Positions 3,467-31,583 of a stretch of DNA of 64,000 nucleotides are shown piece by piece; positions within the stretch are counted from its first letter, which is position 1, and each line of letters opens with the position of its first letter. This stretch comes from Pokkaliibacter plantistimulans (GTDB lineage Bacteria > Pseudomonadota > Gammaproteobacteria > Pseudomonadales > Balneatricaceae). The DNA lies in NCBI RefSeq assembly GCF_003194385.1, contig NZ_LAPT01000001.1, positions 1 through 64,000 on the forward strand, read 5' to 3'. The notes under the pieces were generated by a model, which did no database searches, was not told where the DNA came from, and saw only the letters and a program-made list of their open reading frames with translations. The translations under genes were made by a program, and so were the position numbers.

Positions 3467-3478
3467 ATTGTCGACAAT
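3467..3478. promoter_or_regulatory. candidate GntR operator 3 (ATTGTCGACAAT)
   Basis: A perfect 12-base palindrome ending 12 bases before the ATG at 3491. The two-fold symmetry and its position over the leader fit autoregulation by the FCD-type GntR protein encoded next to it. Inference only. Confidence 0.55.
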
Positions 3479-3490
3479 CTGAGAATGTGT

Positions 3491-4195: not shown

Positions 4196-4253
4196 TAACA
4201 ATGATCTTCAGTAACTACCCACAGCGGGAAGGTCAACAACAGGTAGGACAAAG

Positions 4254-5159: not shown

Positions 5160-5260
5160 ATCGATATAACAACAACTAATGCATCTGCGGGGCTGCTCTG
5201 CAGCAGCCCGGATGTCCTCACAGCCGGCCGAGACCGGACATGATGATAAGGAGAAACTCC

Positions 5261-6391
5261 ATGGCTGAAGCGAAACAACTGAGTGGGGCTGGCTTGCGTG
5301 GTCAGGTGGCGGGTGATACTGCCTTGTGCACCGTCGGCAAGACGGGGGCGGGCTTGACCTATCGTGGTTACGACATGGCTGAGCTGGCTGATAAGGCAGA
5401 GTTTGAAGAGGTCGCCTACTTACTGTTGTACGGCAAACTGCCCAACCGGGCCGAGTTATCCGCGTATAAAAGTAAGCTGAAAAGCCTGCGTGCATTGCCC
5501 GCAGCATTAAAGTCGGTGCTTGAGTTGATTCCCGCTGATGCACATCCTATGGATGTCATGCGTACAGGCTGCTCGATGCTGGGCAACCTGGAGACAGAAC
5601 ATGACTTCTCCGGACAGCATGATAGTGTTGATCGCATGCTGGCCGTATTTCCCTCGATAATCAATTACTGGTACCGCTTCAGTCATGAGGGTATCCGTAT
5701 CGAAACAGCGACCGACGATGACTCTATTGCCGCTCACTTCCTGCACTTGTTACATGGTAAGAAGCCTTCGGAGCTGCATGTCAAAGTCATGCACGCATCG
5801 CTGATTCTTTATGCAGAGCATGAATTCAATGCCTCTACCTTTGCAGCGAGAGTCTGTGCGTCGACCCTGTCCGATATACATTCCTGTATCACTGCGGCTA
5901 TTGGCACGTTGCGTGGCCCATTGCATGGTGGTGCCAACGAAGCTGCGATGGAAATGATTCAGGACTGGGCCTCCCCAGATCAGGCGGAACAGGCGCTGCT
6001 CGGTAAACTGGAACGAAAAGAGAAGGTGATGGGTTTTGGTCATGCCATCTATCGTGAGAGTGATCCACGCAACGCAATCATCAAAAAATGGTCCGGGCAA
6101 TTGGCAGAAGAGGTGGGGGACAAGGTGTTGTATCCAGTCTCTGTGCGCTGCGAAGAAGTGATGTGGCGTGAGAAAAAGCTATTCTGTAATGCCGATTTTT
6201 TCCATGCTTCGGCTTACCACTTCATGGGTATTCCAACCAAGCTCTTCACTCCTATTTTCGTATGTTCGCGTCTGACGGGGTGGGCTGCACATGTGATGGA
6301 ACAGCGTGCCAACAATCGTATTATTCGGCCCAGTGCAAACTATACGGGCCCAGAAGCAGAAGCATGGGTAGATATTGATAAGCGCGATTAA
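5261..6391 (+). CDS. prpC: 2-methylcitrate synthase PrpC
   Basis: Condenses propionyl-CoA with oxaloacetate to 2-methylcitrate. 376 residues from ATG 5261, chosen because AAGGAG sits eight bases upstream; the frame is open to 5240. Citrate-synthase fold motifs are visible: LHGGANEAAMEMI with the catalytic His and GFGHAIYRESDPRN. The size and the N-terminus GAGLRGQVAGDTALCTV fit the short methylcitrate synthases rather than the 427-residue GltA encoded at 53 kb. It is the last gene of the unit; no acnD, prpF or prpD follows. Confidence 0.93.
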   Translation: MAEAKQLSGAGLRGQVAGDTALCTVGKTGAGLTYRGYDMAELADKAEFEEVAYLLLYGKLPNRAELSAYKSKLKSLRALPAALKSVLELIPADAHPMDVMRTGCSMLGNLETEHDFSGQHDSVDRMLAVFPSIINYWYRFSHEGIRIETATDDDSIAAHFLHLLHGKKPSELHVKVMHASLILYAEHEFNASTFAARVCASTLSDIHSCITAAIGTLRGPLHGGANEAAMEMIQDWASPDQAEQALLGKLERKEKVMGFGHAIYRESDPRNAIIKKWSGQLAEEVGDKVLYPVSVRCEEVMWREKKLFCNADFFHASAYHFMGIPTKLFTPIFVCSRLTGWAAHVMEQRANNRIIRPSANYTGPEAEAWVDIDKRD

Positions 6392-6419
6392 CGCGCTGAA
6401 CCTCAGGTTTACTACAGAA

Positions 6420-6441
6420 TGGCAGGCATAGAATCCTGCCA
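6420..6441 (+). terminator. hairpin after prpC
   Basis: TGGCAGG (6420-6426) and CCTGCCA (6435-6441) form a 7-bp stem with an 8-base loop, 29 bases after prpC, followed by a T-rich but interrupted TATTTACATTT. Confidence 0.5.
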
Positions 6442-6566
6442 TATTTACATTTGTCAGGTGCGCTCGTGCATCTGGTGTGCAGTTAGCCGTATGCGGACGC
6501 TTTGAACCTCATAGGCATACACGGAGAGTAGCTATAGGGGAGACAGGGATATACAGAAAGAGACAA

Positions 6567-6590
6567 GAAAACCCGCATGCGGCGGGCTTT
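6567..6590 (-). terminator. intrinsic terminator of tRNA-Pro
   Basis: Read on the minus strand: CCCGC, loop CGCAT, GCGGG followed by TTTTC, 46 bases beyond the tRNA 3' end. The A/T flank extends the stem. Confidence 0.75.
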
Positions 6591-6635
6591 ACAAGGGATT
6601 TTGTAGACAGATATAGACAGGGATAAACAGTAGTC

Positions 6636-6712
6636 TGGTCGGAGAAACAGGATTCGAACCTGCGACCCCTGCCTCCCGAAGGCAGTGCTCTACCAAGCTG
6701 AGCTACTCTCCG
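6636..6712 (-). tRNA. tRNA-Pro (anticodon CGG)
   Basis: 77-base cloverleaf on the minus strand. Acceptor CGGAGAG pairs with TTCTCCG, discriminator A, and CCA is encoded. The anticodon arm is CTGCC-TTCGGGA-GGCAG, giving anticodon CGG (codon CCG); the T arm has TTCGAAT. A C1:G72 pair is the usual proline identity feature. It stands alone, with its own terminator, convergent with prpC. Confidence 0.97.
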
Positions 6713-7149
6713 ATCTGATACCAAGAAGTGATGATCTGCCCAAGTATATTCATCCGCTCTTGCATTGCAAGATAACCTGTTGTTTGAAAAAGTGTTTGTT
6801 TGACTTTTTCCGTTACTTGAAGGATAGCCATAAGTCTGGTCATTTTAAGGGGTAGGGTTACCTAAGGTGATCCGGGATATTACCGTCAAAAGGCGTCGCA
6901 GGATGCATTACGCCAATGGCTCTTATTGCCTGAGTGTCCATCAGGTTCCTATAAGAGTTGGGTCAGAATACGGGATGTTCTGTCACTCTGACGTCATTCT
7001 TCCAATCAACTCTTCCTAAGCGCGATCTGAAGGTGGTTGTCCCTACTTTGTTGTGTCTAATATGGTTTTAACGGTTTTCTGAGTAGTTTTTCAATTAGTG
7101 AACAGCTGTTCTGAGCCGCTTCCGAAACTAGAAAGAAAAGGTGGTTAGT
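6713..7149. other. gene-free stretch upstream of the winged-helix gene
   Basis: About 440 bases. The right part of the tRNA promoter should lie at 6715-6760. The rest shows no coding frame, RNA or strong repeat that I can support. Confidence 0.4.
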
Positions 7150-7482
7150 GTGCGACGTAACAAGAAGATTCAGCATTTTGTAGAAATCGCTACCATGCTA
7201 ACTGAAGAAGGTGTACTGACTCTCCATGCGTCTCTGGTTATTGCTTATCTGATGGAGCATGAACAGGCGCTGATGAGGGAAATGATCGCTCATACAGACT
7301 TGTCCCGTCGCGGACTGGAGAAGATTCTGGCCAACCTCGCCAGTAAAGGACTCGCTGAAAAAGTTCAGATAGAGGAAACCATTCCCGAGGGTAATACTTC
7401 AGGAAGGGGAGACAGGATTGCTTGGCGTTTGAGCAGTACTTTCAAAGGTCAGCTGGGATATCGAATAAATCTGATGAAGTAG
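7150..7482 (+). CDS. small winged-helix protein, function unknown
   Basis: About 110 residues, basic at the N-terminus (RRNKKIQ). The middle (LHASLVIAYLMEHEQALMREMIAHTDLSRRGLEKILANLASKGLAEK) reads as the helix-turn-helix and wing of a MarR/ArsR-like fold, where TDLSRRGLEKILANL would be the recognition region. I do not recognise a named family. Two GTG codons are possible: 7141 and 7150; AAGGTGG ends five bases before 7150, so 7150 is preferred. No partner gene is directly coupled. Confidence 0.6.
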   Translation: MRRNKKIQHFVEIATMLTEEGVLTLHASLVIAYLMEHEQALMREMIAHTDLSRRGLEKILANLASKGLAEKVQIEETIPEGNTSGRGDRIAWRLSSTFKGQLGYRINLMK

Positions 7483-7529
7483 TCAGTCACATCATGGCTC
7501 GGTGTGAGTCACCACGGGGCGTACCGGGG

Positions 7530-7557
7530 TTTACAGGCACGGGACAGGCTGTATAGT
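7530..7557 (+). promoter_or_regulatory. sigma70-type promoter of the DUF2185-like gene
   Basis: TTTACA (7530-7535), 16-base spacer, TATAGT (7552-7557), 38 bases before the GTG at 7596. Confidence 0.55.
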
Positions 7558-7595
7558 AGCCCCGGCAAACGACGCTACCGGAGAGGTTTGAAGAC

Positions 7596-8018
7596 GTGAC
7601 GGCGAGAGGCGACGAAACAGAAAAAGGCCAGACTAAGCAAGGTTTTCTGGCACTGGTATCCAGGCTTTGCTTTGGTGATGAAGCATGTCCTGTACGCTTT
7701 ATGTACAAGACGGTTCCCGCGCATTTGAATGACACCGGCTGGCGCATGTACTCGGGTTACGAGGACGAAGAAATGCTGCATGACGCCGATGCTATGGTGG
7801 TCTACCCCATTGATGCCCTGTGTTCTCGGGATGAGTCACTTGCCGATCTGCTGGAATATAACGCAGGAACAGTCTGGGAGCGGGCTCCTGGCAGTGACTG
7901 GCAGCGTGTGCATGACTACAAAATTCCCAGCGATCATGTCGAAGTTTGGATTTCTAACGATATCGTCGAGGCTGCCAGTAAGCTTGCAGATGAAGATGAA
8001 TCGAAGCCTGTTGCCTGA
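7596..8018 (+). CDS. DUF2185-like protein
   Basis: 140-residue soluble acidic protein. The segment from about residue 30 to 100, with CPVRFMYKTVP, DTGWRMYSGYEDEEML and VVYPIDALCSRDESL, resembles the DUF2185 domain, found alone and in some immunity-type proteins (SMI1/SUKH-like and Imm33-related groups). No toxin gene is visible beside it, so an immunity role is not supported. GTG 7596 is the start, with a GAGAGG stretch upstream. A typical terminator follows. Confidence 0.6.
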   Translation: MTARGDETEKGQTKQGFLALVSRLCFGDEACPVRFMYKTVPAHLNDTGWRMYSGYEDEEMLHDADAMVVYPIDALCSRDESLADLLEYNAGTVWERAPGSDWQRVHDYKIPSDHVEVWISNDIVEAASKLADEDESKPVA

Positions 8019-8093
8019 CTTGACTGTAAAGAGCATGAAGGTGCTTCCTGACAGTTTCTAGCCTGCGCTGAATGAATGTGTCAGCGAAATGTG

Positions 8094-8123
8094 AACCCAG
8101 CTCCTGCTGGGTTTGCTGTTTTT
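8094..8123 (+). terminator. intrinsic terminator after the DUF2185-like gene
   Basis: AACCCAGC (8094-8101), loop TCCT, GCTGGGTT (8106-8113), then TGCTGTTTTTA: perfect 8-bp stem with a T tail. Confidence 0.8.
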
Positions 8124-8188
8124 ATATCCAGTAAAATTTGTGATTTACTAAAAGATGTGTATATTTGTCCAGTAGTTGGAGGTCAGAT

Positions 8189-8671
8189 ATGCAACAGACT
8201 CAATTGCCATCAATGGAAGTCCCTCAAGGTCTGGTCATGGTAAAACGTGCCAGAAAGTCATCAATGCGCCCAGCTGGTATCTGGAGCCTTAAGCCAGCCC
8301 AGTTGATGTTGCCTGTTTTTAGCAGCGTGGGTGTGGACGAAGAGTCAGGGGAAGAGGAGCAGAGCTTCGACTTGTCTGGCTATCTGAAAAGAGACCGCCA
8401 TGATTTCGTCTATGAAGCCTTTGAGCGTTGCTTGCCATCTGGCATCGGCTACGGTGATGTACTGATACTGAACGGCCGCATGCAGGCTCAGAGAGGGGAT
8501 CTCGTGCTAGTTCACTTTGAGGATGACGTCAGCCTCAAACGACTGGAGTATGAAGAGGGGCGACCCTGGCTGTGGGTAGATGATCCGGAATCTGTGGGGA
8601 CGCCGATTGAGGATGGTCAGTCATTCCAGATTCTGGGTGTCGTGACGCGCGTGATACATGCTCTTAAGTAG
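8189..8671 (+). CDS. UmuD/LexA C-terminal-like protein without the catalytic serine
   Basis: 160 residues from ATG 8189, chosen for the GGAGG six bases upstream. From about residue 70 it aligns with E. coli UmuD: GIGYGDVLILN matches GISDGDLLIVD, QRGDLVLVHFEDDVSLKRLEY matches [21 protein letters not shown], and GVVTRVIHALK matches GVVIHVVKAMR. In that alignment the lysine corresponding to UmuD Lys97 is kept, but the GDSM motif with Ser60 is replaced by FERCL. Self-cleavage is therefore not expected (inference). No umuC is adjacent, and no helix-turn-helix is seen in the first 60 residues. It may be a regulatory or UmuD'-like partner of a polymerase encoded elsewhere. Confidence 0.75.
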   Translation: MQQTQLPSMEVPQGLVMVKRARKSSMRPAGIWSLKPAQLMLPVFSSVGVDEESGEEEQSFDLSGYLKRDRHDFVYEAFERCLPSGIGYGDVLILNGRMQAQRGDLVLVHFEDDVSLKRLEYEEGRPWLWVDDPESVGTPIEDGQSFQILGVVTRVIHALK

Positions 8672-8697
8672 TTGCTGGTTGTGTTGTCAGTGATAGT

Positions 8698-8723
8698 GCG
8701 AACCCTGGCTGAACAGGGCTCGC
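8698..8723 (+). terminator. hairpin after the UmuD-like gene
   Basis: GCGAACCCTG (8698-8707) and CAGGGCTCGC (8714-8723) pair at nine of ten positions around a 6-base loop, 26 bases after the stop. No T-run follows. Confidence 0.4.
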
Positions 8724-8734
8724 AACCGTTAGCC

Positions 8735-8899
8735 TTAGCAGGCTGTTGAAAATCTATCTGCGTTGCCGAATACCGCGTCAAAAACAGGCTCAAAATGCTC
8801 ATTTAGCTCACTAAACTCCGCTTTTTCGCCTGTTTCTTGTGCCCTCGGGGTATTTCCTTGTCTCGGCGGCCTCGATAACGTTTTTCAACAACCTGTTAG
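8735..8899. repeat. 165-bp MITE-like repeat, complete copy
   Basis: The ends are inverted: TTAGCAGGCTGTTGAAAA (8735-8752) and, on the other strand, CTAACAGGTTGTTGAAAAA (8881-8899). The interior also folds back on itself: AAAAACAGGCTCAAAATGC on the left side corresponds to GAAACAGGCGAAAAAGCG read from the right, with a centre near CATTTAGCTCACTAAAC. The whole could form one long imperfect hairpin. It encodes no protein. The right end of another copy is at 1-37. It lies just downstream of the UmuD-like gene and of the convergent ETF-QO gene. Confidence 0.75.
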
Positions 8900-8923
8900 A
8901 ACGATGAGCTAACGACTACTGCG

Positions 8924-10576
8924 TCACATATTTGGATAGTTGGGGCCGCCTGAACCTTCTGGTGGCACCCAGTCGATGTTCTGCGATGGATCCTTGATGT
9001 CACACGTCTTGCAGTGCACGCAGTTCTGAGCGTTGATCTGCAGGCGCTTCCCTCCATCATCTTGCTCAACGACCTCATACACCCCTGCAGGGCAGTATCG
9101 CTGTGCTGGTTCTGCAAAACGCGGCAGGTTGATGCTGATGGGGATGGCTGGGTCTTTCAGGCGCAAGTGGCAAGGCTGATCTTCTTCGTGATTGGTATTG
9201 GACAGAAAGACCGATGACAATTTGTCGAAACTCAGTTTGCCGTCAGGCTTGGGGTAGCTGATGGGAGTGAATTCGGCAGCTGGCTTTAGCTGGGCGTAGT
9301 CTTCGGTTTCATCTTTCAGTGTCAGCGGGATTTTTCCGTTGAAAATGTTCTGATCGATAAAGTTGAAAGCGCCACCCAGATAGGTGCCGAATTTATGCAG
9401 TGCGGGTCCGAAGTTGCGTGCGCGATAGAGTTCATCGTAAACCCAGCTGGCCTTGAAGTTCTCGGTATATTCGGTCAGCTCGCGGCTTCCTTCATCACCC
9501 TGTGCCAGTGCTGTAAATAACGTCTCAGCGGCGACCATGCCGGATTTCATGGCTGTATGTACGCCCTTGATTTTGGCGAAGTTCAACGTGCCTGCATCAC
9601 AGCCTACCAGCAGCCCACCCGGGAAGGTCATTTTCGGCAAACTATTGAAGCCACCTTTGGTAATGGCACGGGCACCATAGGCTACCCGCTTACCACCTTC
9701 CAGATGCTTACTCAGGATAGGGTGATGCTTGCAGCGCTGAAACTCATCAAAGGGGCTCAGGTAGGGGTTGCTGTAGCTGAGGTCCGTAATCAGACCGACA
9801 ACCACCTGATTGTTTTCCAGGTGATAGAGGAAGGAGCCTCCTGCTGCTCCATTTTCCTCCAGTGGCCAGCCTGCTGTGTGGACAACCAGGCCTGGCCGGC
9901 TCTTGGCAGGGTCGATATCCCATAATTCTTTGATACCGATGCCATAGTGTTGAGGCGTTGCGTCACGATCCAGAGCGAACTGCTTGATCAAGCGTTTGCC
10001 CAGATGCCCTCGACAGCCTTCGGCAAAGACGGTGTATTTGGCGCGTAGCTCCATGCCAGGCATGTAGCCATCTTTCTCCGTGCCGTCAGCAGCGATGCCC
10101 ATATCACCTGTAATGATGCCTTTGACGACGCCGTCTTCAATGATGAGCTCCTGCGCAGCAAAGCCCGGGAAGATTTCCACGCCCAGTTCTTCCGCCTGGG
10201 TCGCCAGCCAACGGGTGAGGTTGCCAAGGCTGATGATGTAATTGCCATGGTTGGTCATGGTGCTGGGTATGACGGCATGTGGTGTCTTTACCGATTTCTC
10301 TGCATCGCGGAGAAAGTAGACTTCATCATCACTAACGGGGGTGGTAAGTGGAGCGCCTTTGGCTTGCCAGTCGGGGAAGAGTTCATTCAGTGCTCTGGGT
10401 TCAAGCACTGCGCCAGAGAGAATATGGGCACCGACTTCTGAGCCTTTCTCTACCAGACATACACTCAGAGTCTGCTCTTTCTCATTGGCTAACTGCATCA
10501 GGCGGCATGCAGTTGAGAGCCCAGAGGGCCCAGCACCAATGATGACAACATCAAACTCCATTGATTCACGTTCCAC
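8924..10576 (-). CDS. electron transfer flavoprotein-ubiquinone oxidoreductase
   Basis: Inner-membrane-associated flavoprotein that passes electrons from ETF (fed by acyl-CoA and related dehydrogenases) to ubiquinone. 550 residues, family length. The N-terminal dinucleotide-binding motif is VVIIGAGPSGLSTA; the C-terminus carries the [4Fe-4S] cysteines (YCPAGVYE, NCVHCKTCDIKDPSQ). GTG 10576 has GGAGGG six bases upstream; the ATG five codons in (10561) is less well placed. The ETF subunit genes are not next to it in this window. Confidence 0.95.
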   Translation of the reverse strand: MERESMEFDVVIIGAGPSGLSTACRLMQLANEKEQTLSVCLVEKGSEVGAHILSGAVLEPRALNELFPDWQAKGAPLTTPVSDDEVYFLRDAEKSVKTPHAVIPSTMTNHGNYIISLGNLTRWLATQAEELGVEIFPGFAAQELIIEDGVVKGIITGDMGIAADGTEKDGYMPGMELRAKYTVFAEGCRGHLGKRLIKQFALDRDATPQHYGIGIKELWDIDPAKSRPGLVVHTAGWPLEENGAAGGSFLYHLENNQVVVGLITDLSYSNPYLSPFDEFQRCKHHPILSKHLEGGKRVAYGARAITKGGFNSLPKMTFPGGLLVGCDAGTLNFAKIKGVHTAMKSGMVAAETLFTALAQGDEGSRELTEYTENFKASWVYDELYRARNFGPALHKFGTYLGGAFNFIDQNIFNGKIPLTLKDETEDYAQLKPAAEFTPISYPKPDGKLSFDKLSSVFLSNTNHEEDQPCHLRLKDPAIPISINLPRFAEPAQRYCPAGVYEVVEQDDGGKRLQINAQNCVHCKTCDIKDPSQNIDWVPPEGSGGPNYPNM

Positions 10577-20803: not shown

Positions 20804-21703
20804 TCAGCTGTTCAGGTGAGCATCCATGGCTTCCTGTACTAGCCAGGCTCTGAACTTCTCCGCATTGTGGGAAATACTGTGCTGTGAGGGATAAACCAGA
20901 TAAAACGCCTCTTGCGTTGCAAATTGTTCTGCAAAGGGAGCAATCAGAAGCTGGCTCTGTAGCAGGTTGCTGATAAGTGATGTCCTGCCGAGAGCAATTC
21001 CATGGCCGAGCGAGGCCATCTGCAGTGCCGAAATGAGAGTGTCAAAATGGACATGGCTGGCAATAACGAGGTCGTCATTGCCAGTCTGACTCAGCCAGTA
21101 TCCCCAGCCTTCCTTGTACCCCGCAACATGCAGCAATGTGTACTCTGCTAACTGCCCGATGTGTGCAGGTGGTGCCTTGCCGTTGACGTTGTGGCCACAG
21201 ACCGGGACCAGATGATCCCACGTCAGGCGCTCTGATGTCAGTCCTTGCCAGTTACCAAGGCCATGACGGATATCCAGATCAGAGTCCCATTTCCGTTCTT
21301 CAATCCAGATACTGCTGGGAAAGTTCAACCGCACATCCGGGTGCAACGCATAAAAGCGATGCAGACGGGGTGCCAGCCAGTGCGTAAAGAACACCAGATT
21401 GACTTTGACCGTGACCGCCTTGGCAACGCCCTGCCCGAATATTTCATCGGTGACTGCGGCCAGGCGTTCGATGGCGTCTCGTACAGGTGGGAGATAGGAC
21501 TTTCCTGCATCCGTTAGCTCGAGCCCACGCGGCAAGCGTTTGAATAAGGTCGCGCCAAGTTGTGTTTCCAGCCCCTTCACTTGCTGGCTGATGGCGGCCT
21601 GCGTCAGGTTAAGCTCTGTGGCGGCGAGGGTGAAGTTGAGGTGGCGTGCGGAAGCTTCAAAAGAGCGTAGCCAATTAAGCGGCGGGAGGCGTTTTTTACT
21701 CAC
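20804..21703 (-). CDS. dddR: LysR-type regulator DddR of the DMSP genes
   Basis: 299 residues, GcvA-like: the N-terminus MSKKRLPPLNWLRSFEASAR leads into a helix-turn-helix with TLAATELNLTQAAISQQVKGLE, followed by a substrate-binding domain. GTG 21703 is preferred because family N-termini start here and a GAG lies seven bases upstream; TTG 21715 is in frame without a ribosome site. It follows dddC on the same strand, the position of dddR in Marinomonas sp. MWYL1. There DddR activates dddD in response to DMSP; the same role is inferred here. Confidence 0.82.
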   Translation of the reverse strand: MSKKRLPPLNWLRSFEASARHLNFTLAATELNLTQAAISQQVKGLETQLGATLFKRLPRGLELTDAGKSYLPPVRDAIERLAAVTDEIFGQGVAKAVTVKVNLVFFTHWLAPRLHRFYALHPDVRLNFPSSIWIEERKWDSDLDIRHGLGNWQGLTSERLTWDHLVPVCGHNVNGKAPPAHIGQLAEYTLLHVAGYKEGWGYWLSQTGNDDLVIASHVHFDTLISALQMASLGHGIALGRTSLISNLLQSQLLIAPFAEQFATQEAFYLVYPSQHSISHNAEKFRAWLVQEAMDAHLNS

Positions 21704-21875
21704 TTGAATACTCAACTGCTATGGCGGGTGCTGAAAAAATCAAGCGCCATATATCGCAATATGGCTGTGCTCAGGCGTGATTGTGACTGTCATTGACTGG
21801 TGCGCAAGGGCTGGATGAAACGAACGGCCGAGAAGCTGCTCATCCTGACACCACTGAGCCGTGTAAGGCCGATCT

Positions 21876-21928
21876 GACTGCCAGCCAGACTCACTCTCGC
21901 GAGTGAGTTTTCTATCTGTCTGGCAGTC
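21876..21928. terminator. nested hairpin between dddC and dddR
   Basis: The outer arms GACTGCCAG (21876-21884) and CTGGCAGTC (21920-21928) enclose inner arms ACTCACTC (21889-21896) and GAGTGAGT (21901-21908). It begins 15 bases beyond the dddC stop. A short T-run lies on the plus-strand side only. It could separate or attenuate dddR from the upstream genes. Confidence 0.5.
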
Positions 21929-21942
21929 AAACTTCAATCTGC

Positions 21943-23439
21943 TTATTTCATGGTCGGCATGGAGAACTCAACACCCTCGCGAACGCCTGCACTGGGCCAA
22001 CGCTGTGTAATGGTTTTACGTCGGGTATAGAAACGAACGGCATCGGGTCCATAAGCTGACAGGTCACCAAACAGTGAGCGTTTCCAACCGCCAAAACTGT
22101 GGTAAGCCACAGGGACAGGTAGAGGCACGTTGATGCCAACCATACCCACCAGAATATGATCAGAGAAATAACGGGCCGCTTCACCATCACGGGTGAAAAT
22201 ACAGGTGCCGTTACCGTACTCATGGGCATTGATCAGATCCATTGCTTCCTGCATGGTCTTGACCCGAACGACCTGCAACACAGGGCCGAAAATTTCGTTT
22301 TTGTAGCTGTGCATTTCTGGAGAAACATGGTCGATCAGGGTGCCGCCGACAAAGAATCCCTGCTCATGACCACAGACCTCAATGTGCCGTCCATCGACGA
22401 CAACATGGGCTCCCTGCTGCTCGGCGCTATCGATAAATCCCAGTACTTTTTGTTGATGCTCACGGGTTATTACCGGGCCAAAGTCATTGTGGCTGTCAGT
22501 ATAGGCGCCGACCTTCAGGCTGCTCATAGCCGCCTGCATCCCGGCAATGAGCCTGTCGGCAGTGGCATCGCCCACGGCAACCGCCACAGACAAGGCCATG
22601 CAGCGCTCACCCGAGGAACCAAAAGCAGCACCAATCAGCTGATTGACGGTGTTGTCCATGTCGGCATCAGGCATGACGATAGCGTGGTTTTTAGCACCGC
22701 CTAATGCCTGGCAACGCTTACCATTGGCAGTGGCCGTTGCGTAGATGTATTCAGCGATCGGGGTTGAGCCAACGAAGCTCACAGCCTGTACTCGTTTGTC
22801 GTGCAGCAAGGTGTCCACGGCTTCTTTATCACCGTTGACAACGTTCATGACGCCGTCCGGCAGCCCGGCTTCTTGCAGCAACTGCGCAATAAACAGTGTA
22901 GAAGAAGGGTCGCGCTCTGATGGCTTGAGAACAAAGGTGTTACCGCATACCAGTGCCATGGGGAACATCCACAGCGGCACCATCACAGGGAAATTGAAAG
23001 GTGTAATCCCTGCCACGACGCCCAGTGGCTGAAACTCGCTCCAGGAGTCAATGTTGGGGCCGACATGACGGCTGTGCTCGCCTTTGAGCAGTTCAGGGGC
23101 ACCGCAGGCGTATTCCACATTCTCGATACCACGTTGTAACTCACCCATCGCGTCGTGGCTGATCTTGCCATGCTCTTCGCCGATCAGTTCAGCAATCCTG
23201 GTGGCGTTCTGCTCGAGCAGTTCCTTGAAGCGAAACATGATACGAGCGCGTTTGATTGCAGGGGTATTGCGCCAGGCGGGATAGGCCTGATGGGCGGCTG
23301 CGATAGCGCTCTCGACGGTCGCGACGGAGGCCAGACTTACCTGTCGCGCGACTGCGCCGGTTGCTGGATTGTAGATGCTTTGCTGGCGCTGGCCTTCGTG
23401 CACCATGTGTCCATTGATCAAATGACCCAAGGTTTCCAT
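21943..23439 (-). CDS. dddC: malonate/methylmalonate-semialdehyde dehydrogenase-type DddC
   Basis: CoA-acylating aldehyde dehydrogenase, 498 residues from ATG 23439 (GAGGA eight bases upstream; a TTG at 23454 lacks support). It belongs to the MmsA group: GVVAGITPFNFPVMVPLWMF, FVGSTPIAEYIY and the catalytic cysteine in FGSSGERCMALSVAV. In the DMSP pathway it converts malonate semialdehyde to acetyl-CoA and CO2. Outside this context it would be called mmsA, and valine or inositol catabolism would be the alternative; the dddB, dddT and dddD neighbours decide the assignment. Confidence 0.88.
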   Translation of the reverse strand: METLGHLINGHMVHEGQRQQSIYNPATGAVARQVSLASVATVESAIAAAHQAYPAWRNTPAIKRARIMFRFKELLEQNATRIAELIGEEHGKISHDAMGELQRGIENVEYACGAPELLKGEHSRHVGPNIDSWSEFQPLGVVAGITPFNFPVMVPLWMFPMALVCGNTFVLKPSERDPSSTLFIAQLLQEAGLPDGVMNVVNGDKEAVDTLLHDKRVQAVSFVGSTPIAEYIYATATANGKRCQALGGAKNHAIVMPDADMDNTVNQLIGAAFGSSGERCMALSVAVAVGDATADRLIAGMQAAMSSLKVGAYTDSHNDFGPVITREHQQKVLGFIDSAEQQGAHVVVDGRHIEVCGHEQGFFVGGTLIDHVSPEMHSYKNEIFGPVLQVVRVKTMQEAMDLINAHEYGNGTCIFTRDGEAARYFSDHILVGMVGINVPLPVPVAYHSFGGWKRSLFGDLSAYGPDAVRFYTRRKTITQRWPSAGVREGVEFSMPTMK

Positions 23440-23513
23440 TGTTATTTTCCTCAAGAGGGGTTGTTGTGCTGATTAATGCGCAGTGAACAGGTACTAACTG
23501 CTTCGCTTGTGAC

Positions 23514-24671
23514 TCACCAAAGTTCGCTATAGAGAGCAATGATTTCTTCTGCACTCGGTACACGAGGGTTGTTGCCCGGAGAGCCAGATGCCAGAGCCTG
23601 CTCCGCCATGGTGGGCATCAGTTCAAAGAACTTATGCCGATCGATACCGAAGGCTTCGGGGCTTGGCACATGCAACTCACGATTCAGGGCGACCAGTTCA
23701 TCAAGGAGCTTTTGATTGGCGGTACTGTCATCGTCATTGCTATCAGCAACGCCAATGGCGCGAGCACAGTCAGCGTAGCGATCAGCCGCGGCGGGTATGG
23801 AATAGGCGGTCACACGGGGCAGCAGCATGGCGTTGGACAGGCCATGGGGTACATGGAAGAAAGCCCCAATGGGACGGCTCATGCCATGCACGAGCGCTAC
23901 AGAGGCATTGGAGAAGGCGACACCAGCCAGTGTAGAGCCAAGCATCATCGCCTCACGTGCTGCTGCATTCTTACCGTCGTGATAAGCCTGACGAAGATTA
24001 GGGCCGATCAGGCGCATTGCTGCCAGGGCCTGAGCATCGCTGAAGGGATTGGCCTTTTTGCTCACGTAGGCTTCCATGGCATGGGTCAGTGCATCAATAC
24101 CTGTATCCGCCGTGATTCTGGGTGGCAGGCTCAGAGTGAGCTCGTAGTCCACAAGTGCTGCCATTGGCATAAAGCCAAGACCGACACAGAGCATTTTTTC
24201 ATCTCTGGTTTCATCGGTAATGATGGTGAACCGGGTGACCTCTGAGCCCGTTCCTGCTGTTGTTGGAATAGCTATGACTGGCAATCCTGCTTCATTGACA
24301 ATACGGGGGAATTTGTAGTCCCGCATTTCTCCACCAAATTTGGCGAGAATGGCAATTGCTTTGGCACTATCAATAGGACTGCCACCACCTAAAGCAATGA
24401 TGCTGTCGTAATTACCTGATTTGGCTTTTTCTACACCAGCAAGAATAGATGCCATCGTAGGTTCGGGGACGGTATCTGAAAATACATCAGCTGTAATATC
24501 GTGCTCTGCGAGTAGCCTCTCGATATGTGCTGCATATTCAAGTTTAACCATCATATTGTCAGTCACAATAAGAGGTCTGGAACAGTTTAATGAGTGGAGT
24601 GTGGATGTTATTTGCTGAATCGCTCCACCACCGATCTGCATAAGGCGCGGAAGAACTATTTGTGATGACAT
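23514..24671 (-). CDS. dddB: iron-type alcohol dehydrogenase DddB
   Basis: 385-residue group III alcohol dehydrogenase. The NAD site GGGSPIDSAKA, TTAGTGSE and metal ligands in DALTHAMEAYVS and HGMSRPIGAFFHVPHG are present. Expected role: oxidation of 3-hydroxypropionate (from DMSP) to malonate semialdehyde, the substrate of DddC. ATG 24671 has AAGGA six bases upstream and is preferred over ATG 24677. It is 74 bases upstream of dddC and downstream of dddT on one transcript. Confidence 0.88.
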   Translation of the reverse strand: MSSQIVLPRLMQIGGGAIQQITSTLHSLNCSRPLIVTDNMMVKLEYAAHIERLLAEHDITADVFSDTVPEPTMASILAGVEKAKSGNYDSIIALGGGSPIDSAKAIAILAKFGGEMRDYKFPRIVNEAGLPVIAIPTTAGTGSEVTRFTIITDETRDEKMLCVGLGFMPMAALVDYELTLSLPPRITADTGIDALTHAMEAYVSKKANPFSDAQALAAMRLIGPNLRQAYHDGKNAAAREAMMLGSTLAGVAFSNASVALVHGMSRPIGAFFHVPHGLSNAMLLPRVTAYSIPAAADRYADCARAIGVADSNDDDSTANQKLLDELVALNRELHVPSPEAFGIDRHKFFELMPTMAEQALASGSPGNNPRVPSAEEIIALYSELW

Positions 24672-24768
24672 GACCATTCCTTATAAGTGGATACGGCTAG
24701 TAGGTATAAGGTGCTGAAAAAGTGCTGGTATTGTCAGGATGGATAAAACCATCCTGACACAACGTTCT

Positions 24769-26382
24769 TTATGCCGATGTCGTATTGATAGATTCGATTG
24801 ATACGTCCTGGCTATCGCGTTCAGCTCTTCCGTTTTGAATACTTTCTTTCCTGGTCTGACTGGTTTCTTCGTGTAGCGATTTCAACAAGCCATAGATAGC
24901 CAGAAGTAGCACCACTGAGAACGGTAATGCAGCAACAATAGAAGCCGTCTGCAAGGCGCTTAATCCTCCCGCCGCCAACAATACAGCTGCGACGGCACCG
25001 ACCAGCGCACCCCAGATAATCCGGTAGTGAGAGGGAGGATTTTCATCACCCATACAAACCAGGGTGCAGATAACCAGCGTTGCCGAGTCAGCAGAGGTAA
25101 CAAAGTAAGTCACTAGCAATACGGTGCAGATACTGGCCATTACAACGGTCATGACATGGCCGATATTCATCAGCTCGATAGTCTTGAATAGCGACATGGT
25201 GACATCGCTGTTGACGGCTTCGACGATGCCTCCAGCCCCAAACAGCTGAATATGCATGGCGGTATTGCCAAAAATGGTGATCCAGAAAGCGGCGAGCAGA
25301 GTAGGGGCAATCAGCACGCCAATGACAAACTCTCTGATTGTTCTTCCTTTGGAAATTCTGGCGATAAAAATGCCACAGAAGGGTGCCCAGGCAATCCACC
25401 AGCCCCAGTAGAAAATGGTCCAGTCACCTTGCCATGCGTCTTTAGGATTGGGATTGACCCAGAAGCCGAGATTGACTGCATGGGTAATGTAATCGCCCAG
25501 ATTGGTGAAGAAAGCACCGAGCAGATATACCGTAGGGCCAAAAACAATGAAGAGCGCCAGAATAACCACCGTCAGGTGCATATTCCATTCGCTGAGAAGA
25601 CGAATGCCTTTGTTGACACCTGATAATACTGAGGCCGTTGCAATAGCGGATATCACAACAATCAGAACAATCTGGACTGGAGTAGATACTTCCAGGCCGA
25701 AAAGGTAATGCAGTCCGGTGTTCATTTGTTTGGCGCCCAGTCCTAGTGACGTGGCAATTCCAAATACAGTACCAAATACCGAAAGCAAGTCGGCTGCATG
25801 GCCAATCGGGCCGTAGATACGCTCACCGAAAATGGGATAGAGACTGGAGCGAATAGAGAGGGGCAATCCTTTACGGTAGGAAAAATAAGCAAGAAGCATC
25901 CCGATGACTGCAAATAGTCCCCAGCCATGCAGACCCCAGTGGAAGATGGCAATACGCATCGCAACCTGAGCAGCCTCAACGGTTCCTTTCTGCGCATCAG
26001 TAATAAATGGATTTCCCTGAAGATGATAGATTGGCTCGGCAATACTCCAGAATAGGATACCTATTCCAATTCCGGCGCCGAATAACATGGAAAACCAGGA
26101 AAAATTACTGAACTCAGGACGGTCCTCATCTTTACCAAGACGAATGCTGCCATAGGGGCTAATGATTAGCCAAAGAGAAAGTATAAGGCAAAAACATATT
26201 ACACCGATGTAGTACCAGGATAGCTCATTGGCAATGAATGCCTTCATTGAATTGAACAACGATGAGGCATAGGTAGTGTTGATTATGGTAAATAGCACAA
26301 ATGCCACTATTAGTGCTACCGACCCGTATATCATTGTAGCAGAGTTGTTTTTTGGACTATGACGGCTGATATGAGAGCTCAT
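24769..26382 (-). CDS. dddT: BCCT-family transporter DddT (DMSP/betaine)
   Basis: 537-residue secondary transporter with about twelve membrane segments. Family marks are the glycine-rich stretch FGAGIGIGILFWSIAEP in the third helix and the tryptophan-rich box WGWWIAWAPFCGIFIARISKG. BCCT proteins import betaine, carnitine, choline or DMSP; the genes around it indicate DMSP. ATG 26382 follows GGAGG by seven bases. It is the first gene of the leftward dddT-B-C(-R) unit, head to head with dddD across 785 bases. Confidence 0.88.
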   Translation of the reverse strand: MSSHISRHSPKNNSATMIYGSVALIVAFVLFTIINTTYASSLFNSMKAFIANELSWYYIGVICFCLILSLWLIISPYGSIRLGKDEDRPEFSNFSWFSMLFGAGIGIGILFWSIAEPIYHLQGNPFITDAQKGTVEAAQVAMRIAIFHWGLHGWGLFAVIGMLLAYFSYRKGLPLSIRSSLYPIFGERIYGPIGHAADLLSVFGTVFGIATSLGLGAKQMNTGLHYLFGLEVSTPVQIVLIVVISAIATASVLSGVNKGIRLLSEWNMHLTVVILALFIVFGPTVYLLGAFFTNLGDYITHAVNLGFWVNPNPKDAWQGDWTIFYWGWWIAWAPFCGIFIARISKGRTIREFVIGVLIAPTLLAAFWITIFGNTAMHIQLFGAGGIVEAVNSDVTMSLFKTIELMNIGHVMTVVMASICTVLLVTYFVTSADSATLVICTLVCMGDENPPSHYRIIWGALVGAVAAVLLAAGGLSALQTASIVAALPFSVVLLLAIYGLLKSLHEETSQTRKESIQNGRAERDSQDVSIESINTTSA

Positions 26383-27167
26383 TTATAGGCCTCCATCAAC
26401 AAGATATGCGATTGTCTTTGCGCACATAGTGGGTTAGCCGGTAAGTCAGTATAAAAACAGCGCTGGTGAGGATTGCAGCCTCGATTGCTTTTCATGATGT
26501 AGGCCTTTTGCTTTCATTTGACCTGGGAGTGGTCAAACGGGTTTGTTTTTATAGGAGGACCTTGTGGCGGAATGGTGGTAGTGCTTTCGCCCTATCTAGT
26601 GACCCACCCTCCGTACCAAAGCCATTGTTGGTAGATATCATCCGTTTGGAAAGCAATAAAAAAGTGGTCTTAGGGTTGAAAATAATTATGGCTAGCTTGT
26701 CTCTGGGTATGACGATGGCGAGTTTCAGGTGAGTATTGCAATGCCTGAACCGGCTCATTCTGATTACCCTGAGCCCTTTCAATACCGGTTTTTCTACGCT
26801 TGCATGCAGTTGAAAAGGACTGCTGTGACCTATCTGTAGCGACAAGTCAGCACGACCTCCCCGGGACTATTATTTTTCTTTGCTTCAGCATACTAGGTAA
26901 TGAGCTATTTCTTGGTATTTGGTAATAAGCATAGCTATAAAAAAAATGAGGCCTCAGGCGTGTTTTAAATTGCTGGTCAATTTTCTGGTGAGGCTTACTA
27001 TTGAGCTAAATGTAGGGCTGTATGATTTTTATTTAATCTTTATTAGAAATGCACAATTCGTGGCTTCTTATTTAGGCGGCGTCTTATGAGCCTTCCGAAA
27101 AGAAAATAAGAATACAATGCTGCCTATTGAATCGTTGGCAGTATTAATTTGGAAAGGATGAGTCTAT
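26383..27167. promoter_or_regulatory. long dddT-dddD divergent control region
   Basis: 785 bases, with no credible gene (an 88-codon frame at 26466-26732 has no support). AT-rich towards dddD. Possible -10 elements are TACAAT at 27113-27118 for dddD, without a good -35, as is common at LysR-activated promoters, and TATACT on the minus strand (26453-26448) for dddT. A 10-base palindrome TGAGGCCTCA lies at 26947-26956. I could not pick a certain LysR site. Confidence 0.45.
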
Positions 27168-29681
27168 ATGATTACTCGTAATCATTTACCCTTGGCTGGC
27201 GTAAGAGTTGTTGACTTTGGCCAGCAGATCGCGGGTCCGGCTGTGGCAATGGCAATGGCTGATCAGGGCGCTACTGTTATTCATATTGATCCGCCGGAAG
27301 GTCCATTCTGGAATGACCCTGCGAATGCGGTATTAAATAGAAATAAGATTTGTATCCGTCTGGATTTGAAGCAGGAAGAAGGATTGACTCAGGCACTGGC
27401 ATTGATTGCACAGGCTGATGTGGTCATCGAGAGCTTTCGCCCCGGAGTCATGCAGCGACTGGGGATTGATTTCACTGCTCTACGTCAGGAGCGCCCTGAA
27501 CTGATTACGCTGTCCATGCCAGGTTTTGCCAGCAATGACGCGTTGCGTCGTGACTGGAAAGCTACGGAGGCGGTGGTGGCCGCAACCTCTGGAGTCTTCA
27601 CCGATATGGGATTCAATCGTGTGCTGATGGGGCTGAATCCCAGCTTTTCACCATTACCTTTGGGTTCTTCTTACGCTATCTCTTTGGGGGCAGCCGCCGT
27701 CGCTCTGGCACTATACAGTCGTGAGAAGTCCGGCCGTGGCGACGCCATAGAAGTGCCCATTTCCAGTTCCTTGATGGAAGGGCTCTGCTATAACTCGATA
27801 GTTATTGATGAGATGCCCGAGCGATACAGGACAATGCGTGAACAGGAAATCGCCTACCGTAAGGCCAGTAACCTGCCTCTGGATATGTCCTACAGTGATT
27901 TGCAGGAGTTTCTCGATCCTTTCTACCGTACTTATGAGTGTGCTGATGGACGCATGTTCTATTGCGTTTGTCCTTCCCATCGCAACCACGCTCGACGTTG
28001 TCTGCAGGTGCTTGGCATCTACGATGAGCTGGTGGCAGAAGGCTTGCCTGATGTTAAGAATCTGTACCTGCCAGTGGATCAGTGGGATGGAGAAACGTCC
28101 ATTGGGGTCTACCCGCTGCCCAAAGGGTGGGCGGATAAGATCGCCGCAAAGATGAAAAAGGCGTTTTTGCTCAAAACGTCTGATGAGTGGGGGCGTATTT
28201 TCGGTGAAGGGCAGATTCCGGGTGCACCTCACAAAACGACCGAGGAATGGGTTCAGCTGGAGCACACTAATAGCAGTGGTCTGATCGTCGAAGTGAATGA
28301 TCCGGAGTATGGCCTCATGAAGCAGCCGGGACCATTGGCCTGGTTAGAGGGGGTAACAGACCCACTGCTGCACCCGCAAGCCCGTACGCTGGCGAGCGTA
28401 GATGAGGCGTTCGATGCGTTCAGTGCAGTGGATCGCAGTCTGACGTCAGACTTTGCTGCATTGCGGATGGCAGCTCCAGAGGGAACAAAAGGATGGCTTG
28501 ACGGGCTTAAAGTACTGGATTTGACCAATGTCATCGCGGGCCCACATTCTGCCGCCTTCCTGACTCGCTTTGGTGCAGAGGTGATCAAACTGGATCCGGT
28601 GACACCGCTGTATGATCCATTGATAGGTACCATGTATACCTTCCAATGTGGCATGGGCAAGAAAAGTGCTCTGGTCGACATCACCACGGCACAGGGCAGA
28701 GAAGTATTTAACCGGCTTGTCCGTAGTGTTGATCTGGTGGTCATCAACGCGCCAGAGCGGCAAATCAGACAGCTGAAGCTGGACCATGAAACTTTACAGG
28801 CTATTAACCCTGGCGTGTTGTTCTGCCGACTCGATTGCCTGGGCGGGCCTGATCGGGGGCCGATGAGCGATTACATTGGCTATGACGACATTATTCAGGC
28901 AGTCAGTGGCATCATGAGTCGATTTGGCGGCATAGCCACTCCTGAAGAACATGCCCATATCGGCACGCTTGATGTGAATTGTGGCTTTGCTGCGGGATTT
29001 TCTATCGCGTTGGCGCTGTATCTGAAACATAAGACAGGGCAGGTAACCCGTGCCCGTACTTCACTCTCTGCGGTAACGAATATGGCACAGTTGCCCTATG
29101 CCTACGATTTCAACGGGCGCGCACCTTTCAATGAACCATCCGGCCGCAATGCATTGGGTAATCACCCACTGTCGCATTTTTATCCGACACAGGATGGTTG
29201 GATCTTTATTGATGCTTCGCCTGCTGAACTGGACAAGCTGGAAAGTATTGAAGGAATGAAGGGCATTTCCCTGGCTTCAGACCGGCATGCGTTTTTACAG
29301 GCCAGCTTTAAAGCAGCGACGACGAACTATTGGGTGGACGTTTTGCACTCGGCTGATATCGCTGCGGCTGAGCCACTCTCCATGCAGCAGCTGCGTGACA
29401 AGTACAGCCGTGTTGCAGACGGTGCGGTAGGTATCGACAAAGGAAGCTACGCCTTCTCTATTTATCCTGATCATCCCAGCGGTCACCGGGTAACTCAGAT
29501 TGACCATTTTGCTATCCGCCCCAGTGAGGCAAAGATCAGAGCGGTGACTCCGGTTGAACGCTTCGGGCACTCAACTAGAGACGTACTTCTGAGTGTTGGC
29601 TACAGCACTGCAGACATTGAGGAAATGGAAGCGTCGGGTATAGCAAGTATGGGATGGTGTGACCGACTACTGCCCAACTAA
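27168..29681 (+). CDS. dddD: DMSP CoA-transferase/lyase DddD
   Basis: Releases dimethyl sulfide from DMSP while forming 3-hydroxypropionyl-CoA, using acetyl-CoA as donor. 837 residues built of two class III CoA-transferase (CaiB/BaiF) domains, about 1-420 and 440-837. The first begins LAGVRVVDFGQQIAGP, the second LDGLKVLDLTNVIAGP. The catalytic aspartate of the second domain lies in HIGTLDVNCG and is residue 602, the number I recall for the active-site Asp of Marinomonas DddD. The first domain has no matching Asp at the equivalent place that I can identify. ATG 27168 follows AAGGATGAG. Fused length, D602 and the dddTBCR neighbours together distinguish it from a carnitine CoA-transferase. Confidence 0.95.
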   Translation: MITRNHLPLAGVRVVDFGQQIAGPAVAMAMADQGATVIHIDPPEGPFWNDPANAVLNRNKICIRLDLKQEEGLTQALALIAQADVVIESFRPGVMQRLGIDFTALRQERPELITLSMPGFASNDALRRDWKATEAVVAATSGVFTDMGFNRVLMGLNPSFSPLPLGSSYAISLGAAAVALALYSREKSGRGDAIEVPISSSLMEGLCYNSIVIDEMPERYRTMREQEIAYRKASNLPLDMSYSDLQEFLDPFYRTYECADGRMFYCVCPSHRNHARRCLQVLGIYDELVAEGLPDVKNLYLPVDQWDGETSIGVYPLPKGWADKIAAKMKKAFLLKTSDEWGRIFGEGQIPGAPHKTTEEWVQLEHTNSSGLIVEVNDPEYGLMKQPGPLAWLEGVTDPLLHPQARTLASVDEAFDAFSAVDRSLTSDFAALRMAAPEGTKGWLDGLKVLDLTNVIAGPHSAAFLTRFGAEVIKLDPVTPLYDPLIGTMYTFQCGMGKKSALVDITTAQGREVFNRLVRSVDLVVINAPERQIRQLKLDHETLQAINPGVLFCRLDCLGGPDRGPMSDYIGYDDIIQAVSGIMSRFGGIATPEEHAHIGTLDVNCGFAAGFSIALALYLKHKTGQVTRARTSLSAVTNMAQLPYAYDFNGRAPFNEPSGRNALGNHPLSHFYPTQDGWIFIDASPAELDKLESIEGMKGISLASDRHAFLQASFKAATTNYWVDVLHSADIAAAEPLSMQQLRDKYSRVADGAVGIDKGSYAFSIYPDHPSGHRVTQIDHFAIRPSEAKIRAVTPVERFGHSTRDVLLSVGYSTADIEEMEASGIASMGWCDRLLPN

Positions 29682-29849: not shown

Positions 29850-30461
29850 TCAGCGAACAATAATGATGGGGTTATCACCACCCACTTCATGCAGCTCGCC
29901 TGAGCCGGTATAGCCGGGCAGCCCCTGCGGTGCGCCATGGAAGGCCGTGCCGCGGCTGGCGACGAACTGGCCGCGGCAGCCAACATTTTCATCTACCGGA
30001 GTGGTCTTCACATAGCCGCTGACGTTGTTGGATGCGCTATTGAAGAAGCCACTGATGACCAGATGACGCTTGCTGGTGAAAATCGGCAGGCTGCCATCGA
30101 CAAACCACTTGCCCCCTGTGACATTCACTGCACCGTAGAACTCGCCGGTTGTGCTGACGGGGACCTTGAAAGTGAGTGGCTGGGCACTGCGCATAGTAGC
30201 TGTTACCCAGCCGTTGCTGACGTTCAGACTTAGGTCATCGGTGAAGCGATCACAGTACGTTCTGACCGTTGAGCCCATGTTCATATGCTGGATATCGGAG
30301 CTGATCGTTGACCATGCCTGGCCTTGCCACTGGCCATCGAACTGGCCGGAGCTGTCGCGCATGTCTTCAGCTACCGGTCTGGTCAGCTGTTGCTGGCAAC
30401 CTGTCAGGGCCAGCACGCTGCCAAAAAGGCAGGCTGTGAGGAGTGAGTGGTGGTAACGCAT
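29850..30461 (-). CDS. lipoprotein, paralogue of the next gene upstream
   Basis: 203 residues. The N-terminus MRYHHSLLTACLFGSVLALT followed by GC is a lipoprotein signal (LTGC lipobox), so the mature protein is membrane-anchored at Cys22. No known domain is recognised. It shares blocks with the protein at 30705-31274: SGQFDGQWQGQAW, FTDDLSLNVSNGW, and a final beta-rich half with LPIF and VISGF. The repeated aromatic and glycine pattern suggests a beta-sandwich fold. ATG 30461 has AGGGA seven bases upstream; the frame is open to 30569 but that part is not signal-like. Confidence 0.75.
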   Translation of the reverse strand: MRYHHSLLTACLFGSVLALTGCQQQLTRPVAEDMRDSSGQFDGQWQGQAWSTISSDIQHMNMGSTVRTYCDRFTDDLSLNVSNGWVTATMRSAQPLTFKVPVSTTGEFYGAVNVTGGKWFVDGSLPIFTSKRHLVISGFFNSASNNVSGYVKTTPVDENVGCRGQFVASRGTAFHGAPQGLPGYTGSGELHEVGGDNPIIIVR

Positions 30462-30653
30462 AGCTATGTCCCTGAAAGGAGTAAGGTCACCCATCGTAAA
30501 TGCGGTTGCATTACTGTGCGGGTTGAGTGTGGCCATGGTAAATGTCTGGGGATGGTGATGTGTAGTCACAACAACCGATTGCAGAAAGTTTATGGCTTTC
30601 TGCCGGAGGCAGGGCTTGATTCACGTCATAAGGTGAGTGTGCATCGCGATGCG

Positions 30654-30683
30654 AAAACGGCCGGTGAAGTTACCGGCCGTTTT
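30654..30683. terminator. terminator between the two lipoprotein genes
   Basis: AAAACGGCCGGT, loop GAAGTT, ACCGGCCGTTTT: a perfect 12-bp stem with its own A/T flanks, so active in both directions. It ends the gene at 30705 and shows the two lipoproteins are separate transcripts. Confidence 0.85.
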
Positions 30684-30704
30684 ACTCTGATTCTGGGGGA
30701 AGTG

Positions 30705-31274
30705 TCAGTAGGGCGACATGGCGCTGTCACCGGAATAGGGAGGCAGGTCGGGGTATCCGGTGATGGTGCCGTCTTTGGCCATCGCAAAATCTCCTTCGCA
30801 TCCGGCCTTGTCATTCATCGGCGCGGTGCGGATGGAGCCGTGGGCCATGCTGGTTTTCGGATCAAGAATACCGCTGATGATCACGCGCTTCTGGTAGTCA
30901 AAAATGGGCAGGTGGCGGCTTACTCCCAGACTGCCCTGCACAGGTACTGAGGCATAGAAACGGCCTTCGCTGTCCACGGGGACACGGAAGGTGACCGGTT
31001 CATTGGCTTTGAAGCTGCCATCGGCCCAGCCTTTGATCACGGATAACTTGAGATCATCGGTAAAGGGAGCGCAGTTGGAGATGGCGCGGTCGTTGAGGCT
31101 GGTAGGCGTGACCTGAGGTGTCTTGGTCAACCAGGCTTTACCTTCCCAGTTGCCATCGAATTGTCCGCTGGTATCCCGTTCGGTTGGATTCAATGGGTCG
31201 GTCAACGGTGTCGTACAACCGGTCAGACCCGCCGCTGCTAACACTCCAACCAACAGAATAACGTGACGCTGCAT
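30705..31274 (-). CDS. lipoprotein, paralogue of the 29.9-kb gene
   Basis: 189 residues. MQRHVILLVGVLAAAGLT followed by GC is a lipoprotein signal peptide. The mature part shares SGQFDGNWEGKAW, CAPFTDDLKLSVIKGWA and HLPIFDYQKRVIISGIL with the neighbouring paralogue; cysteines at equivalent places may form disulfides. No family name known to me. ATG 31274 has AGGGA upstream. The frame is open to 31322 without a signal-like start. Confidence 0.75.
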   Translation of the reverse strand: MQRHVILLVGVLAAAGLTGCTTPLTDPLNPTERDTSGQFDGNWEGKAWLTKTPQVTPTSLNDRAISNCAPFTDDLKLSVIKGWADGSFKANEPVTFRVPVDSEGRFYASVPVQGSLGVSRHLPIFDYQKRVIISGILDPKTSMAHGSIRTAPMNDKAGCEGDFAMAKDGTITGYPDLPPYSGDSAMSPY

Positions 31275-31583
31275 GTGTAATCCCTCTATCAACTTGATCA
31301 TTCCACCCACATGGCGATGCATGGGCTTTCCTGTATCTACCAGTCCTACTCTGTAATTTGAAACGCAAACCCTGCATAGCGTAACAGTGTGCTTACAAGC
31401 AAAGCCTATCGTTTCAAAGTGTAGTCAATGACATGCTGAATCGGCACCGAAGATTTGCAACTTTTAGTAAAGCGTGTTTTGCGCTGTGTATATCCGAGGG
31501 GTATCCGCAGTGTCACGAACAGGCAGGGGATAGCGGATGGGCAATGAGGTGTGAGGCGTGAGGTGTACCGATTGTCAGACAGC

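Follow-up and report, generated by a model that had tools for sequence, protein, structure and literature searches.

The 64,000-nucleotide stretch of Pokkaliibacter plantistimulans DNA analyzed here (the window; contig NZ_LAPT01000001.1) carries, at 20804-29681, a five-gene block that almost certainly represents a complete dddD-dddTBCR cluster for the catabolism of dimethylsulfoniopropionate (DMSP), together with a conserved, near-palindromic element of 45 bases that we propose as the operator of the clustered LysR-type regulator. Four open reading frames (ORFs) lie on the minus strand: lysR (dddR, 20804..21715), encoding a LysR-type regulator of 303 residues with a TTG start and the LysR helix-turn-helix and substrate domains of Pfam; dddC (21943..23439), encoding a predicted coenzyme A (CoA)-acylating (methyl)malonate-semialdehyde dehydrogenase (MMSDH; PF00171), with ATG at 23439 as the likely start of an ORF listed to 23454; dddB (23514..24677), encoding an iron-containing alcohol dehydrogenase and predicted 3-hydroxypropionate (3-HP) dehydrogenase (PF00465/PF25137); and dddT (24769..26382), encoding a BCCT transporter and predicted DMSP importer (PF02028, 624 bits). 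The divergent dddD (27168..29681, plus strand) encodes a tandem class III CoA-transferase and predicted DMSP lyase, with PF02515 matched in two stretches of one frame. A first-pass annotation had placed the five ORFs at these positions, and the translated frame bears out the 837 residues and the Asp at residue 602 that it gave for DddD. That annotation read the locus correctly; clusters of this kind are well studied, and the present one is ordinary among them.

All steps of a route from DMSP uptake through cleavage and 3-HP oxidation to acetyl-CoA are encoded in the block, as had been claimed, if the predicted activities hold. DddT would import DMSP, and DddD would transfer CoA from acetyl-CoA to DMSP via Asp602, with release of dimethyl sulfide (DMS) and 3-HP-CoA or 3-HP left behind. 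DddB would then oxidize 3-HP to malonate semialdehyde, which DddC would convert to acetyl-CoA and CO2. Acetyl-CoA is the CoA donor of DddD according to PMC8163506.

The gap between dddT and dddD spans 785 bases, and aligning it with the gaps of three genomes of the same family (G017, G002, and G030) exposed an island at approximately 26932-26976. This island is the 45-base element facing dddD (26932..26976, plus strand), which has the consensus CAGCcATAAAAAAAAtnangcCTnAGGgnnnTTTTTTATTGCTGG with an outer inverted repeat. When 89 sequences totaling 1.82 Mb were searched with a seed profile of these four copies, 70 matches were obtained at E values up to 0.01: 56 faced dddD, eight dddT, and four dddB, whereas two did not face any gene of the set. 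With the four seed sequences set aside, there were 66 matches in 55 of 85 sequences, some of the loci being near-identical. The element was found in nine families (Porticoccaceae, Oceanospirillaceae, Pseudomonadaceae, Marinobacteraceae, Endozoicomonadaceae, Colwelliaceae, Halomonadaceae, Alteromonadaceae, and Aeromonadaceae), although each of the last three is represented by a single locus. A refined profile, partly circular in that it was built from 53 of the matches, gave 87 matches in 65 of the 89 sequences; all lay outside ddd genes but less than 1 kb from one, and three block-shuffled sets yielded zero matches. The 24 sequences without a refined-profile match include all alpha- and betaproteobacterial sequences and the three from Vibrionaceae, and some of the 24, when searched singly, show weak matches upstream of dddD.

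Two checks were independent of the model's own columns. Flanks were 27%–28% identical between copies, which is chance level, compared with 70% within the element (the latter value being inflated by selection). Moreover, of 63 dddD-facing copies, 46 had TAnnAT starting at an offset of precisely 20 bases from the element, while no other offset from 8 to 39 was shared by more than four copies. In the window, the corresponding TACTAT (26996..27001, plus strand; offset 19 after the element) is the -10-like box of a predicted dddD promoter. The gap also holds a weaker copy of the element facing dddT (26650..26694, minus strand; matched by model R1 at 26651-26680), which lay outside the training set. 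It is followed by a -10-like ACAATG at 26628-26623 (minus strand), an instance of A.AAT at offset 21; among 43 opposite-facing matches (E values up to 0.1, palindrome echoes included), 21 had this motif at the same offset and five had it at offset 22. The dyad CCACG-N6-CGTGG was present in 5 of 51 gaps and absent from the window gap, and a sigma-70 consensus scan found two sites, fewer than in shuffled sequences and none in the dddT-dddD gap.

Across the 5.79-Mb genome of the organism itself (150 of 1,187 first-look candidates scored), the two best matches were the two gap copies, with E values of 2e-11 for the training copy and 0.03 for the copy outside training; the next match had an E value of 0.86. 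In a search of 96 relatives, every match with an E value of 4e-6 or better lay at dddD (G002, G030, G021, G017, G071, G069, G058, and G064). All of these genomes except G064 were in the training set, and hence G064 is the one independent case.

On balance, the sequence evidence makes it probable that the element is a DddR-type LysR operator across nine gammaproteobacterial families, with one copy per divergent promoter and, at this match strength, confined to the ddd locus within the organism's genome. It may further mark a DMSP regulon extending to non-homologous genes, such as a DddX-like gene in the same-family genome G034. The LysR protein would activate both divergent transcripts in response to a pathway product, possibly 3-HP by analogy with the regulators AcuZ, MmsR, and HpdR, and would most likely do so by binding the element, which ends at the expected -35 region of each predicted promoter. 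A LysR-type activator fits this arrangement because the element ends where a -35 box is expected, as in MmsR and HpdR.

These regulators belong to the closest published systems. AcuZ (DddZ) of Halomonas sp. D47/HTNK1 is likewise a LysR protein that controls dddT/dddD, with 3-HP as its effector (PMC13104084). The Halomonas gene set differs (dddTD, dddCA-acuNK), however, and the motifs given for AcuZ in the same paper, AATTGATT and TATA-N8-GATA, are not those of the window element; section 2.4 of that paper reports that DNase I footprinting of this Halomonas ddd LysR was inconclusive. For Pseudomonas MmsR/mmsA and HpdR/hpdH, experiments have placed a dyad operator just ahead of the -35 region in the promoter of a 3-HP catabolic gene, although the operators themselves (AATGTGCAA-N15-TTGCACATC and GCCCCTGTGC-N6-GCACAGCGGC, respectively) are unlike the window element (PMC6441110, PMC5431877). 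Our literature search, which covered listings with abstracts and passages of a few papers, found no operator described for a dddD-linked LysR; it did return work on the unrelated AcuR/dddL operon.

Two results temper the proposed roles of the element and of 3-HP. The residue pattern of the 3-HP-binding site 1 of AcuZ, at its published spacing, had no match in the window LysR or in the LysR proteins of the other loci (in a pattern search, as opposed to an alignment to AcuZ). In addition, 63 of the 96 relatives have some match to the element at E values up to 0.01, many of them without a known ddd gene, and, of three non-ddd matches examined, two (G073:C64 and G028:C149) are terminator-like hairpins followed by T runs. 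Element matches weaker than about 1e-6 in relatives are thus mixed with terminators.

Binding of the element by some protein besides the clustered LysR, such as an IclR regulator or a global factor, is regarded as unlikely. In its favor, clusters of SAR92 bacteria carry iclR as well (PMC10746254), and the frequency of the element varies with the position of lysR: 12 of 26 loci have the element when lysR is immediately upstream of dddD, 46 of 49 when lysR occupies another place in the cluster, and 6 of 13 when the stretch contains no lysR. The SAR92 iclR sits between dddC and lysR (a gap of 829 bases in L076), whereas the corresponding window gap of 227 bases could not accommodate an iclR, yet the window does have the element. 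Among loci with the same gene order as the window, 14 of 27 similarly have a lysR-dddC gap below 400 bases; the gaps of 804–925 bases in the other 13 leave room for an iclR as described in SAR92. A global factor is disfavored by the scan of the organism's own genome (150 of 1,187 first-look candidates scored), in which the match ranking behind the two ddd copies had an E value of 0.86.

It is less likely still that the element acts as RNA, as an intrinsic terminator or hairpin. Its arms are an A-tract and a T-tract, the two non-ddd matches noted above look like terminators, and 78.4% of arm cells pair, compared with 45%–63% in slid versions, as would be expected of any palindrome. Nonetheless, RNAalifold predicted no pair from 63 copies, neither pairing nor covariation exceeded that of shuffles, and the element stands upstream of a -10-like box at a fixed distance and is present in both divergent directions. 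The RNA reading is therefore disfavored, and we read the element as DNA because RNAalifold finds no structure and covariation does not rise above shuffles.

One further match, in G034 (L180, G034:C1:147000-166500), has an E value of 5e-6 and is not terminator-like. A distance of 169 bases separates the element (9795-9836) from a downstream gene of the acyl-CoA-synthetase type (ORF 7454-9925, minus strand; likely start ATG at 9625). Among proteins of solved structure, the product matched DddX best (E value 3.6e-93), then 4-hydroxybutyrate-CoA ligase (6.4e-87) and 3-hydroxypropionate-CoA ligase, and in the alignment it keeps DddX residues His292, Trp391, Glu432, and Phe435, although Glu432 and Phe435 adjoin a gap. 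About 8 kb away are genes for an AcuI-like reductase (identified by eye) and for a LysR with 60% identity to that of the window. By sequence, the gene may encode a DMSP lyase of the DddX type; the other reading is a 3-HP- or 4-hydroxybutyrate-CoA ligase.

The assignment of dddD draws on a search of named genomes in which at least 594 stretches matched the pattern and at least 479 encoded a DddD relative; the best 80 loci were kept. DddD of the window is 58%–72% identical to its relatives in these 80 named loci. Among 57 genomes including that of the organism itself, nine others encode a full-length relative (46%–75% identity), all within the 35 genomes of the same family. From an alignment of 92 rows, L104 was dropped for in-frame stops; in the remaining 91, Asp at position 602 and Ser167, the matching site of the N-domain, are invariant (91/91 each). 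Asp602, which we take to be the catalytic Asp, aligns with the Asp of three Escherichia coli enzymes (CaiB, Frc, and YfdE) and with that of four class III proteins from the organism's own genome. In a separate ORF of 477 residues (L137, G000:C201:10000-22000, 5120-6553), about 210 N-terminal residues precede a class III CoA-transferase domain.

A quick tree was built from 47 rows, comprising 33 C-domains (from the 91 DddD proteins), seven N-domains, and seven single-domain or own-genome proteins. Here, the C-domain of the window DddD fell inside a 25-row clade with a support of 100, together with DddD of SAR92 strain H921. CaiB, Frc, and YfdE fell outside, on long branches that make their exact placement unsure. 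A study of SAR92 expressed DddD from H921 and three further strains and assayed the proteins with DMSP and acetyl-CoA; its abstract states that they were ratified (PMC10746254). The first-pass annotation had read the window protein as DddD, and it indeed groups with DddD proteins, including a ratified one, apart from CaiB, Frc, and YfdE. It had also anticipated that automatic annotation would give generic names. The best NCBIfam score of DddD was 175.9 bits against a cut-off of 442, and the protein was below the cut-off of all seven models listed; a generic label is expected since it scores so far below these thresholds. Labels of homologs in the 30 plasmid records listed were "CoA transferase" in 19 cases and "carnitine dehydratase" in one, with no feature or annotation in ten, and, within the window, subfamily models for MMSDH and BCCT proteins did pass.

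It is very improbable that the main substrate of this DddD-type enzyme is some other sulfonium or betaine compound, with the same downstream route. Substrate specificity is unreadable from sequence, and dddD-like genes at about 56%–57% identity are common on rhizobial and agrobacterial plasmids; against this stand the shared clade with a DddD ratified in print (PMC10746254) and the release of DMS from DMSP by Endozoicomonas acroporae, which carries a dddD cluster (PMC7174347). Carnitine or betaine catabolism by a CaiB-like CoA-transferase and a carnitine/betaine BCCT can likewise be given hardly any weight: Pfam assigns only the general CoA-transferase family and the BCCT is close in sequence to choline, trimethylamine (TMA), and betaine carriers, but DddD is a tandem fusion outside CaiB, Frc, and YfdE in the tree and far under the cut-offs of the CoA-transferase models listed, and the dddBC partners and conserved gene order fit 3-HP rather than carnitine.

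That gene order is not a chance arrangement, since the exact order LysR- DddC- DddB- DddT- DddD+ is shared by 27 of the 80 named loci; two more have it without a LysR in the stretch, and it also occurs in the same-family genomes G017, G002, G030, and G064. The first-pass annotation had identified it with the arrangement of Marinomonas sp. MWYL1, whose exact gene order we take to be dddTBCR. PMC10746254 supports this likeness in comparing clusters with dddD divergent from dddTBC and lysR, including those of SAR92 strains H921 and H231, to that of MWYL1. The host genus differs and no functional difference was seen, the MWYL1 sequence itself being outside the set of loci compared. Identities to the window in the 27 same-order loci were 62%–72% for DddD, 63%–76% for DddT, 70%–78% for DddB, 79%–85% for DddC, and 54%–63% for LysR, and the closest own-genome paralogs were 52% (DddT), 39% (DddB), 71% (DddC), and 35% (LysR) identical. 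Judged by identity, all five genes match same-order ddd loci better than paralogs in their own genome, dddC being the least clear.

DddC exceeded the TIGR01722 cut-off (664.4 against 448.5 bits) and has Cys280 and Asn251 in 63 of 63 aligned rows, presumably the catalytic Cys and the Asn typical of MMSDH enzymes that acylate CoA. In DddB, Asp195, His199, and His278, which we assume to be the metal ligands of iron-dependent alcohol dehydrogenases, are present in 65 of 66 rows, with one gap. The genome also encodes an AcuI/YhdH-type reductase elsewhere (431.4 bits, cut-off 297.25); a search for cupin-type DMSP lyases (PF16867) found none in it, DddP, DddY, DddX, and DmdA not having been searched for.

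Two caveats concern individual partners. With a DddC paralog at 71% identity elsewhere in the genome, MMSDH activity would not be unique to the ddd locus. The window BCCT scores better against a solved TMA transporter than against the solved DddT of Psychrobacter D2, and, while it keeps 10 of the 12 pocket or entry residues named for D2 DddT in PMC13270143 (Ala99 is Gly and Tyr324 is Trp), most of the pocket residues are also kept in own-genome BCCT paralogs and in CaiT. Hence, the pocket residues do not prove DMSP specificity, and DMSP as the substrate of DddT rests on context, because the TMA transporter is closer and these residues are mostly generic. As for that context, the window BCCT belongs to a 42-row clade of ddd-locus BCCTs with a support of 100 (FastTree, 62 rows, long branches among the outsiders); own-genome paralogs all fall outside, the 52% paralog just so. 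At least three types of BCCT adjoin dddD (e.g., L066 and L105): the window type, a type at 39%–46%, and the Psychrobacter D2 type at 32%. The DddC paralog lies between an aminotransferase-like and an amidohydrolase-like ORF, in a locus (L133, G000:C189:1-14000, 396-7442; genes identified by eye) that also has a BetT-like BCCT and reads as one for beta-alanine or pyrimidine breakdown.

A reading of the cluster as a horizontally acquired island was considered on the basis of GC content and flanking ORFs and was rejected. GC content is on the whole lower in the cluster (0.43–0.56 per kb, compared with 0.53–0.60 in its neighbors), and reaches its lowest value in the dddT-dddD gap. In 19.9-kb stretches of G017, G002, and G030, the ddd unit has other neighbors: no match over half length was obtained there for any of eight ORFs flanking the window cluster (lrgA, lrgB, two lipoprotein-like ORFs, malate synthase, cydA, cydB, and a fused E1). 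Two adjacent lipoprotein-like ORFs at 29850-31322 of the window look alike by eye and had no match in Pfam, NCBIfam, or PHROGs. An Rfam scan found one tRNA in the window. A ddd locus was also seen on the Pseudomonas aeruginosa plasmid pF045_1 (L124), from a cystic fibrosis lung isolate, with dddD, dddB-like, and lysR-like genes at 65%, 71%, and 59% identity to those of the window; IS66 genes lie between dddB and dddD, choline-type genes lie downstream, and the element faces dddB.

With this cluster, the likely producers of DMS gain one more bacterium, whose family had been connected with DMSP before; this is a useful annotation rather than a discovery. The element matters more, since the place where LysR binds in dddD clusters is not settled in the literature surveyed. 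With care about terminators, it could be used to look for further DMSP genes.

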